A DNA stretch of 64,000 nt from an uncultured SAR86 cluster bacterium (GTDB lineage Bacteria; Pseudomonadota; Gammaproteobacteria; Magnimaribacterales; D2472): the NCBI GenBank assembly GCA_902594515.1, contig CACJML010000001.1, forward strand, positions 1 through 64,000. Direction: 5' to 3'. Of the stretch, positions 11,113 through 17,630 are shown piece by piece. Every line of letters begins with the position of its first letter. The first letter of the stretch is position 1. Under the pieces are notes generated by a model. That model was not told the DNA's origin. It saw nothing but the letters and a program-made list of their open reading frames with translations, and did not search any database. Both the position numbers and the translations under genes were made by a program.

Positions 11113-13374
11113 ATGAAGAACAAAATTCAAGCATTTTTGGTTATAGGTGCACTTTCAGTATTAAATATAACCGCACAGGAAACAGAAGAAATTTTGGTTA
11201 CAGCCTCATTTGTTTCTTCTGAAGTAAATGGTGCATTGCATGTGGTGGATGGTGATGAAATCGATACTGCTGCAAATTCAAGTTTAGGTGAAGCAATCGA
11301 CGATTTGCTGGGAGTTTCCTCAGCTGATTTTGGGTCTGCCATTGGCCAACCAATAATAAGGGGTATGTCAGGTACAAGGGTGAAAGTTCTTGATAATGGA
11401 GTGGTTAACAGGGATGTCTCCGCATTGGGTCCAGATCATCCAAATGACACAGATTTAAATAATATCCAACAGATAGAAGTGATCAAAGGGCCTGCATCAC
11501 TTTTATACGCTAATGGAAGCATTGGCGGGATTATCAATATTGTTGATAATACCATTTCAAAAGTAGACTTTGACAAGCCAAGCTTTCAACTTGGTCTTGA
11601 GTCTCAGTCTGTTAATGATGGTGAGTCTCAAAATTTTTCTTATACAGATAATGTTGGTGGTCTAAATATAGTCCTTTCTCATAAAAGTTCTGAATTTGGA
11701 AATTTTGACATTCCCTCAGGTGCCATCATGCATGAAGAAGAAGAGCACCATGATGAAGAAGAAGAGCATCATGATGAGGAAGAAGAGCACCATGATGATG
11801 CCGGTTTTTTAGCAAACTCAGATTATGAGTTAGAGTCAACTAGTATTGGTATTTCAAAAACTGGAGATTGGGGATACTTTGGTATTTCTGCCAAGTCATT
11901 AGAAAATATGCATGGAATTCCATTTCATGGTGATGGACACGGTCATGATGAGCATGGTGATGAGCATGGTGATGAGGAAGAGCATGGTGAAGAAGAAGAG
12001 CATGAAGGTGAAAGAATCTTTGCTGTTACTGATTCTGATAAACTTGATCTCAGGGGTTCCCTAAATATTGATGGTTCCATTTTTAGTTCAGTTGATTATT
12101 TTATTAGAGATACCGACTATGAATTAGTTGAGCAACATGCTGAAGAAGAGGAACATCATGATGAAGATGAAGAGCATGATGAGCACGGACATGAAGAAGG
12201 CCCTACAACATTTGCTAACGAAGCAACGGAATTTGGCTATACTTTCAATCTAGCTGATACCTCACTGTTTTCACAAAAGCTTGCTTTTAATTTTGCTGAA
12301 GAGGAGTCATCAGTCATTGGAAGCGAATCTTTTATGAATCCTGCAACTTCTGAGGAAGCAACTGTCGGGTACTATATTTCCGGAGATTATGGTTTATTCA
12401 AATTAGATGCTGGACTTAGGATAGATAATATAGATCGAAAAGGTTCCATTACTACTCATGAAGAGCATCATGATGAAGATGAGCATCACGATGAAGAGGA
12501 AGAGCATCACGATGAGGAAGAAGAGCATCATGATGAGGAAGAGACTGAGACAGTAAACCACAAAAAGGATTTTGATAATCGAAGTTTTGCTATTGCTTTA
12601 TCAAGGGACCTTAACGAATCTTTATCTTTAGAGATCGGAACATCTGTTGTGGAAAGAGCACCATCTGTCAGTGAGTTATTCATGAACGGACCTCACTTGG
12701 TAACGCAAAGGTTTGAGGTGGGCAACCCCAATCTCAATGTTGAAACGGCTAGAAATGTTGAATTTACACTGAGATATGCTAACGAAGGAGTTTATGCATC
12801 ATTCACTGCTTTCCAAAATGATATAGATGACTATATTTATTTGCAGGATGAATCTGAAGAAGAACATGCTGATCATGATGAGGAGCATGAAGAGGGCCAT
12901 GATGATCATGAAGGCCTGATTCTTGCTAATTTTCTTCAAGAAAGCGCAGAGTTTAGAGGCTATGAGCTAGAAATCGGCAGAGTATACGACCTTGGGTCTG
13001 GTTTGCTAGACATTAGATATGCTAGGGATGAACTCACCGCATCCTTTAATGATGGACATGATGTTCCAAGAATTACTCCTGCAAGGAATCTATATTCACT
13101 TTCTTACTCAAAAGGCAGTATGTTATTTAAACTTCTGCTGAAAGATGTTGATAAGCAAGATGAGATTGGTGAGGGGGAAACTTCTACCGATGGCTACCAG
13201 ATGCTTAATGCAAGATTAACTAAAACATTTGATTTAGGTAACTCAAATTTAAGTGTTTCTATATTTGGAAATAACTTGCTTGATGAAGTAGCCAGAAATC
13301 ATTCGTCGTATGTTAAATCTCAAGTTCCATTGCCCGGTAAAAATTATGGAGTGAAATTTAACCTTAATTTCTAA
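11113..13374 (+). CDS. TonB-dependent outer membrane receptor, ZnuD-like (probable zinc uptake) with several His/Glu/Asp-rich segments
   Basis: TonB box region EEILVTAS, plug IRGMSGTRVKVLDNGVVNRDVSALGPDHP, VIKGPASLLYANGSIGGIINIVDN, C-terminal YGVKFNLNF; repeated HHDEEEE. Confidence 0.88.
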   Translation: MKNKIQAFLVIGALSVLNITAQETEEILVTASFVSSEVNGALHVVDGDEIDTAANSSLGEAIDDLLGVSSADFGSAIGQPIIRGMSGTRVKVLDNGVVNRDVSALGPDHPNDTDLNNIQQIEVIKGPASLLYANGSIGGIINIVDNTISKVDFDKPSFQLGLESQSVNDGESQNFSYTDNVGGLNIVLSHKSSEFGNFDIPSGAIMHEEEEHHDEEEEHHDEEEEHHDDAGFLANSDYELESTSIGISKTGDWGYFGISAKSLENMHGIPFHGDGHGHDEHGDEHGDEEEHGEEEEHEGERIFAVTDSDKLDLRGSLNIDGSIFSSVDYFIRDTDYELVEQHAEEEEHHDEDEEHDEHGHEEGPTTFANEATEFGYTFNLADTSLFSQKLAFNFAEEESSVIGSESFMNPATSEEATVGYYISGDYGLFKLDAGLRIDNIDRKGSITTHEEHHDEDEHHDEEEEHHDEEEEHHDEEETETVNHKKDFDNRSFAIALSRDLNESLSLEIGTSVVERAPSVSELFMNGPHLVTQRFEVGNPNLNVETARNVEFTLRYANEGVYASFTAFQNDIDDYIYLQDESEEEHADHDEEHEEGHDDHEGLILANFLQESAEFRGYELEIGRVYDLGSGLLDIRYARDELTASFNDGHDVPRITPARNLYSLSYSKGSMLFKLLLKDVDKQDEIGEGETSTDGYQMLNARLTKTFDLGNSNLSVSIFGNNLLDEVARNHSSYVKSQVPLPGKNYGVKFNLNF

Positions 13375-16563: not shown

Positions 16564-16613
16564 TGGTGCCCAGAGGTGGAATCGAACCACCGACACAAGG
16601 ATTTTCAGTCCTT
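16564..16613 (-). repeat. Distal att copy: partial tRNA-Phe (3' 50 nt incl. CCA)
   Basis: tggtgcccagaggtggaatcgaaccaccgacacaaggattttcagtcctt identical to 17555-17604. Confidence 0.9.
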
Positions 16614-16658
16614 GTGTCGAAGTCGTAAACCCATATAAATATTGCGCTTAAGTGCATA

Positions 16659-16678
16659 GTGTTCATAACAGTGTTCAT
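16659..16678 (+). repeat. GTGTTCAT direct repeats (left cluster)
   Basis: GTGTTCAT at 16659-16666 and 16671-16678; a related GTGAACAC at 16715-16722. Confidence 0.6.
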
Positions 16679-16725
16679 ATTTTCATATGAAAACTAATTA
16701 AAAATTTAACACCAGTGAACACAAG

Positions 16726-16941
16726 TTATGACCAATCCGATTTAAAAAAATTATAGTATTTTGGTGAAGATGCACCTGCATAACTTCTTCTTTGACTGTA
16801 TTTAAGTCTTCCTTTTTCATACCTATAAACATAAGCACCTAAAGGACCCCATGCTCTAAGACATACCTCAAAGGTTCCATCCCCATAGTCATGAACCCAA
16901 AGGTTTTCATTTACTTCAGTAGTTTTTCTATTATTTTTCAT
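16726..16941 (-). CDS. Orphan small protein inside tRNA-Phe insert
   Basis: 71 aa (MKNNRKTTEVNENLWVHDYGDGTFEVCLRAWGPLG...), AGGAGTAAT upstream of ATG. Confidence 0.5.
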   Translation of the reverse strand: MKNNRKTTEVNENLWVHDYGDGTFEVCLRAWGPLGAYVYRYEKGRLKYSQRRSYAGASSPKYYNFFKSDWS

Positions 16942-17178
16942 TATTACTCCTTTACTTGTTGATTAACCTCATCATTTTTTCCACCTTGCCGGAGTTGGCA
17001 GGTTGGAGGAGAACTTAATCCCACTCTTGATGTGCAATTATTATAACAATTTTCAGATTGAAATTTGTGAAAAAACCCCCATATAAATAAGTGTAAAGAA
17101 AGAAATATCTTCTTATTTCAAATTCCATTACTCACATTTACATACCCAATTCCGGGTGTGTTTCTTATGGAGAAAAAT

Positions 17179-17481
17179 ATGCAAGTATTTAAATGCGAAT
17201 ACGAACTTCCCCAAGGGAAGATTAATCATAATGTTCATGTTGATTGGGATGATAAAGGCAACTTACATTTTGCTGAGCAAGATCTTGGTGATGGGGTAAG
17301 GCAATTTTGGGGAACCGAAGAGTATGAATACTTTATGATGATTCATCAAAAACATGTAGCAAAATTTATTCTTTGTTGCTTTTGGAAGGGTTTTACCTTT
17401 GAAGAAAGATTTACTGTTGCTGATTTGAGGGAATTGTGTGACAAGTATGAGATTGAATATTCAACAGATAACTGGTTTTGA
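17179..17481 (+). CDS. Orphan small protein inside tRNA-Phe insert (track start 17158; ATG 17179 has better SD GGAG)
   Basis: MQVFKCEYELPQGKINHNVHVDWDDKGNLHFAEQDLGDGVRQFWGTEEYEYF... Confidence 0.6.
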   Translation: MQVFKCEYELPQGKINHNVHVDWDDKGNLHFAEQDLGDGVRQFWGTEEYEYFMMIHQKHVAKFILCCFWKGFTFEERFTVADLRELCDKYEIEYSTDNWF

Positions 17482-17490
17482 TTAGTTTTT

Positions 17491-17524
17491 ATGAACACTA
17501 AGATCAGTGTTCATAAGTGTTCAT
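17491..17524 (+). repeat. GTGTTCAT repeats (right cluster)
   Basis: ATGAACAC 17491-17498 (inverted), GTGTTCAT 17507-17514 and 17517-17524. Confidence 0.6.
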
Positions 17525-17554
17525 AAAACCAAGATTTGAGAAATGCTTTAAAAG

Positions 17555-17630
17555 TGGTGCCCAGAGGTGGAATCGAACCACCGACACAAGGATTTTCAGT
17601 CCTTTGCTCTACCGACTGAGCTATCTGGGC
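17555..17630 (-). tRNA. tRNA-Phe (anticodon GAA)
   Basis: Minus strand gcccagatagctcagtcggtagagcaaaggactgaaaatccttgtgtcggtggttcgattccacctctgggcacca folds as a cloverleaf; GAA anticodon, encoded CCA. Confidence 0.97.

Follow-up and report, generated by a model that had tools for sequence, protein, structure and literature searches.

As a 991-bp insert (16565-17555) at a tRNA-Phe gene of a SAR86 genome carries no integrase of its own, we asked how such an element could move and what the short repeats just inside both of its ends represent. The window analysed here is a 64,000-nt stretch of this genome. ARAGORN placed an intact tRNA-Phe(GAA), the integration target, at 17555-17630 on the minus strand, and the 3' half of this gene forms the right att repeat (from 17555/17556). 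The left att repeat, on the attL side (16565-16613, plus strand), is a displaced 3' half of tRNA-Phe; it is identical to 17556-17604 and matched the tRNA at 49 of 49 positions when the tRNA was searched by blastn against the window and its relatives. In two genomes of the same genus, G006 (L040) and G004 (L041), tRNA-Phe is intact and uninterrupted, and both flanks align at ~90-93% identity with no insert between them, indicating that the left att repeat was duplicated by insertion. The same-genus genome G005 carries a different insert of 2.77 kb (L076) at the same tRNA-Phe site. At the left junction, a perfect 11-bp inverted repeat flanks a 7-bp overlap that coincides with the anticodon loop, giving a proposed core-type site at 16591-16619 (no strand assigned) that reads CGACACAAGGA-TTTTCAG-TCCTTGTGTCG. 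An inverted repeat around an anticodon-loop spacer is what a tyrosine-integrase core site looks like when crossover takes place in the anticodon loop, and the junction has the defining features of such cores, namely half-sites in inverted orientation that flank an overlap of 6-8 bp at the target. The core half borne by the element (T.CTTG.STCGA) is kept in related inserts.

The repeats are copies of one word, GTGTTCAT, which occurs as a direct pair inside each end. On the left, the two plus-strand copies (16659-16666 and 16671-16678) have a 12-bp period, and the pair begins 46 bp inside the left att repeat; on the right, the plus-strand copies at 17507-17514 and 17517-17524 have a 10-bp period, and the pair stops 31 bp short of the right att repeat. 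Related inserts carry sites at corresponding positions for both pairs, with the first left copy at an equal offset from the core. An exact inverted copy, ATGAACAC, lies on the minus strand at 17491-17498, and in several relatives the inverted copy follows the word of the right pair. A possible inverted site on the left, GTGAACAC (16715-16722, minus strand), contains a single mismatch; TGTGAA or ATGAACA takes this place in several relatives. All of these copies had been located correctly in a first-pass annotation of the window, and the spacing of about one helical turn that it had described corresponds to a period of 12 bp in the left pair and 10 bp in the right pair. These short sites are thus repeated to the left and right of the core, and their sequence differs from that of the core sites.

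To ask how unusual this arrangement is, we counted the word across the 1.36-Mb genome. Of 39 copies of GTGTTCAT, five fall within the 1-kb insert and the other 34 are spread at ~1 per 40 kb. The tandem form, GTGTTCATN{0,20}GTGTTCAT, was found only at the two insert ends, and a reversed control pattern was found nowhere. In first-order Markov simulations of the two 130-bp ends, none of 2000 runs reached even two copies of GTGTTCAT. The annotation had offered equal frequency elsewhere in the genome as grounds for abandoning its proposal; the word is not equally frequent elsewhere, and its tandem form is confined to both ends.

We consider it very likely that the GTGTTCAT repeats are arm-type sites for a heterobivalent tyrosine integrase of the lambda/P4 type that acts in trans. 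On this reading, the insert is an integrative element at tRNA-Phe that has no integrase and probably relies on an enzyme encoded elsewhere to move. Recognition of accessory arm sites by an arm-binding domain is a known property of this integrase class (PMC8138268). In the proposed mechanism, the catalytic and core-binding domains of an integrase supplied in trans would contact the inverted repeat of the core, and the N-terminal arm-binding domain would bind the paired GTGTTCAT words on both sides. Strand exchange in the 7-bp anticodon-loop overlap would then allow a circle to enter tRNA-Phe, restoring the 3' half of the tRNA, or allow the insert to be excised. We infer that an integrase recognises the words, that it is supplied in trans and that the element remains mobile.

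The arrangement agrees with a well-described attachment site. In the P4 record (NC_001609), the attP arms are annotated as pairs with a 12-bp period that flank the core on either side, together with inverted copies. Like P4 and lambda arm sites, the window repeats are paired direct repeats that flank a tRNA-derived core, with a 12-bp period and an inverted copy; as attachment sites they are of this known lambda/P4 kind. Unlike P4 attP, the window has GTGTTCAT instead of TTGGGGGCATAA, its right pair has a 10-bp period and no integrase gene lies in the insert. A literature search for the GTGTTCAT motif as an integrase arm found nothing.

We next looked at the distribution of the paired word. In 107 SAR86 genomes, the GTGTTCAT pair occurred in 13 places, 11 of which are ends of tRNA-linked inserts: nine at tRNA-Phe and two at tRNA-Ile (both left ends; L080 and L081). 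The remaining two places are low-complexity coding repeats. As pairs mark insert ends at both tRNA genes, the motif appears to travel with insert ends and not with one tRNA. A survey of SAR86 tRNA-Phe and tRNA-Ile loci yielded 39 inserts with both ends, in which we scored tandem words (a 7-mer repeated with a period of 9-13 within 110 bp of the core). Such words were present in 22 left and 20 right ends, compared with ~1.6 and ~1.8 in shuffled sequences. Their positions from the core are fixed, with the left pair near +49 (12-bp period) and the right near -49 (10-bp period), and the word varies by insert. In an aligned subset, the left pair has the consensus TA.TGTtCAtATTA.TGTtCAt in a single register from the core, and the flanking TGTTtCAG and AAAcCct.TAa are also common to this subset. 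The conservation that the annotation had proposed as a check is therefore seen at the level of position: homologous inserts from several lineages and at two different tRNA genes keep it, with other words replacing GTGTTCAT coordinately at both ends. Among 369 sampled Gammaproteobacteria, the pair was found in 12 genomes including the source genome, mostly as scattered single matches; two same-genus genomes among the 12 have many pair copies. We accordingly rejected GTGTTCAT as a general arm word.

The word itself differs between inserts on a constant layout. GTGTTCAT is used by the window insert and by L003, L082, L083 and L084; other inserts carry CTGTTCAC (L056), CTGTTCAT (L064), CTGTTCAA (L068), GTATTCAA (L075), GATGACTT (L055) and, at tRNA-Ile, GTGTGTAT (L169). 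The word is usually identical at both ends of an insert: left and right ends shared a tandem word in 13 of the 39 inserts, against 3.7 expected by permutation (sd 1.5, maximum 11), and none of 20,000 permutations reached 13. About two thirds of the 39 inserts failed this strict left-right test. As the inserts are partly related, the counts are not fully independent and give no clean probability; words common to relatives raise the permuted values, which makes the permutation test conservative. What appears to be new is that SAR86 integrase-less inserts have a common arm layout on which the words diversify in step at both ends. A few inserts have mixed ends, such as L076 (7874-10639, oriented) with GTGTTCAT on the left and CTGTGCAT on the right, and L080 (4260-5816, oriented) with GTGTTCAT on the left and GTGTGTTA on the right, which suggests recombination between elements, fused neighbours or loss of an inner att site. 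In L003 (4735, 7101, 8002), L064, L069 and L075, two inserts stand in tandem at a single tRNA-Phe, and each is bounded by an att copy of its own.

An insert that lacks an integrase could also be a dead relic, integrated once by its own integrase, which was then lost, so that the element is now immobile and the words survive by descent. Relatives in which one end is lost or the ends are mixed (L060, L071, L063, L076 and L080) would fit such decay. However, the words and the core are intact at both ends of the window insert, many integrase-less inserts likewise retain both ends intact, and in same-genus genomes the same tRNA is found empty, with the window insert or with another insert. We therefore regard the relic explanation as unlikely; it concerns present activity and is compatible with the identity of the sites as arm-type.

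If the words are arm-type sites, the same layout might be found on elements that encode their own integrase; the first-pass annotation had recommended looking for the motif near att sites of such elements in relatives. In genome G003, a 9.5-kb tRNA-Phe element (L055) encodes a 494-aa tyrosine integrase (PF00589, E 1.9e-16), with a weak, below-cut-off match to the arm-binding domain PF13356 (Arm-DNA-bind_3, E 4.9e-5). Both ends of this element have paired GATGACTT words with a period of 11, and such pairs were found nowhere else in the 107 genomes. Paired words were likewise present at both ends of two tRNA-Ser elements that carry part of an integrase, L163 (TCTACGCA) and L164 (TTACGCAC). Integrase-bearing SAR86 elements thus show the same kind of layout, as does the annotated P4 attP.

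This layout also bears on the main rival explanation, in which the words are replication iterons that a P4-alpha-like primase or a helper Rep binds after circularisation, with their proximity to att being incidental. The type I repeats of the ori in the P4 record (TGTTCACC or TGTTCACA) form pairs 9-10 bp apart in both orientations, and TGTTCACC is close to the CTGTTCAC word of L056. Ends of L056 and L073 carry CTGTTCAC(C), right ends combine 10-bp periods with an inverted copy, and GTGTTCATAAGTGTTCAT is clustered on a P4-primase-like viral contig. P4-type iterons, however, are TGTTCAC repeats on an element with a primase or Rep gene, whereas the window insert has a similar word and neither gene, and none of the inserts examined with Pfam contained a primase or Rep gene. 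Moreover, the left and right offsets from the core are constant at each of two tRNA genes, unrelated words (GATGACTT, GTATGCGA, GTGTGTTA, TTACGCAC) occupy the same place in other inserts, and the layout is the same on integrase-bearing elements. Together, these observations make iterons improbable and favour arm-type sites.

A trans-acting integrase predicts a helper, and we searched for one. No integrase with TGTTCA-type or otherwise matching arms was found in the 107 SAR86 genomes or in viral contigs, and no parent element with GTGTTCAT arms was found in the 107 genomes. Among the genomes whose PF00589 matches are listed, tRNA-Phe inserts other than L055 had none. The source genome (G000) has only two PF00589 matches, both on other contigs; they were taken as XerC and XerD because matches of such length and score recur in nearly every SAR86 genome. 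Among viral contigs, the tRNA att was found only in one unrelated tRNA-array phage contig, and the right-arm string in one P4-primase-like prophage contig and in one coding region of a phage. Searches of viral contigs with degenerate patterns for the left and the right arm, with the 107-aa protein encoded in the insert and with the L055 integrase found no match. L126, a P4-primase-like prophage contig (IMG/VR), has clustered GTGTTCATAAGTGTTCAT and CTGTTCAT repeats at 11388-11553, perhaps a P4-type origin.

The insert encodes only two ORFs, neither with a family match. One, on the minus strand (16726-16941), encodes a 71-aa small protein predicted to be all-beta, which is also present in L059 and L060 and, as a distant relative, in L083; it had no match in Pfam, NCBIfam or PADLOC and, at an AlphaFold pLDDT of 80, no significant fold match in the PDB. 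The other, on the plus strand (17158-17481), encodes a 107-aa protein that recurs in SAR86 inserts and elsewhere and was found in 31 of the 107 SAR86 genomes; its closest homologues are all from SAR86. It had no family match and no significant PDB match (AlphaFold pLDDT 74). The region upstream of its gene is conserved, and copies of the gene lie both within inserts and at sites with no tRNA close by. We considered the right-end palindrome as a terminator and rejected this, as a terminator scan found none there.

Short repeats in att arms also serve as excisionase binding sites, and the words might belong to a recombination directionality factor (RDF) of this kind and not to the integrase. The 71-aa ORF is small enough to encode one, yet neither the 71-aa nor the 107-aa protein matched a DNA-binding factor in fold or family searches, and the left and right pairs are of equal strength and matched across the ends. 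A nearly identical 109-aa protein stands beside different words in L059, L064 and L069, indicating that it does not set the word; near-identical copies with different words likewise led us to reject the 107-aa protein as an arm-binding factor. Excisionase sites are thus highly improbable. The annotation had proposed integrase-arm or excisionase sites; with equal pairs flanking the core, the integrase half of that proposal fits better and the excisionase half less well.

Arm-type sites on an integrase-less insert have parallels among known elements. Cis-mobilizable elements (CIMEs) retain attL and attR and have lost their integration genes (PMC5704250), and Dehalococcoides ssrA islands lack an integration module (PMC3146451). 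Like these, the window insert lies without an integrase between attL and attR at an RNA gene, and some genomes have tandem arrays. It is bounded by attL and attR with a precise empty site and contains no recombinase or transfer genes. These are the CIME features that we examined, and decay from an ICE or IME is a candidate origin only. Unlike in CIMEs and ssrA islands, the arm sites of the window insert are visible and diversified, and the 107 SAR86 genomes contained no integrase-bearing parent with the same word. Tycheposons, VEIMEs and PICMIs (named in PMC10803314 and PMC11389934) are likewise small integrative elements of marine bacteria, and defence-type genes are among the cargo of relatives of the window insert, as in those elements. 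PICMIs have int, alpA and primase genes and insert at fis; the window insert has none of these genes, sits at tRNA-Phe and is not a PICMI. Nor was it assigned to the tycheposons, which PMC10872708 describes as tRNA-bordered elements with a tyrosine recombinase and cargo; the lack of a recombinase sets the insert apart from that description.

Related inserts with the same ends encode C5-methylases, type I HsdM/HsdR, Eco57I-like and ResIII proteins. Restriction-modification genes are common in tRNA-Phe inserts (L056, L059, L064, L067, L068, L073, L075, L076, L082 and L083), indicating that tRNA-Phe is a defence-gene hotspot in SAR86. More speculatively, and only as a tentative proposal, the SAR86 cargo elements that lack an integrase and sit at tRNA-Phe or tRNA-Ile, many of which include restriction-modification genes, might each carry in their arm word an address for a different trans-acting integrase, and mixed ends might be recombinants between addresses. 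If so, small elements could use the arm word as a code to select a helper or change to another. The usual way to map arm sites is by footprinting, phage by phage. Here, natural variation exposes them, as many inserts at one tRNA have a common layout on which end-matched words differ. With sequence as the only input, this allows the ends of integrase-less elements to be recognised and matched to helper integrases, and it suggests how streamlined ocean bacteria such as SAR86 may trade restriction-modification genes without carrying integrases. A second SAR86 integration hotspot is tRNA-Ile(GAT) (L080, L081, L167-L172), where the left ends of inserts carry further paired words, such as AGTTCCCA and TACCCCA.
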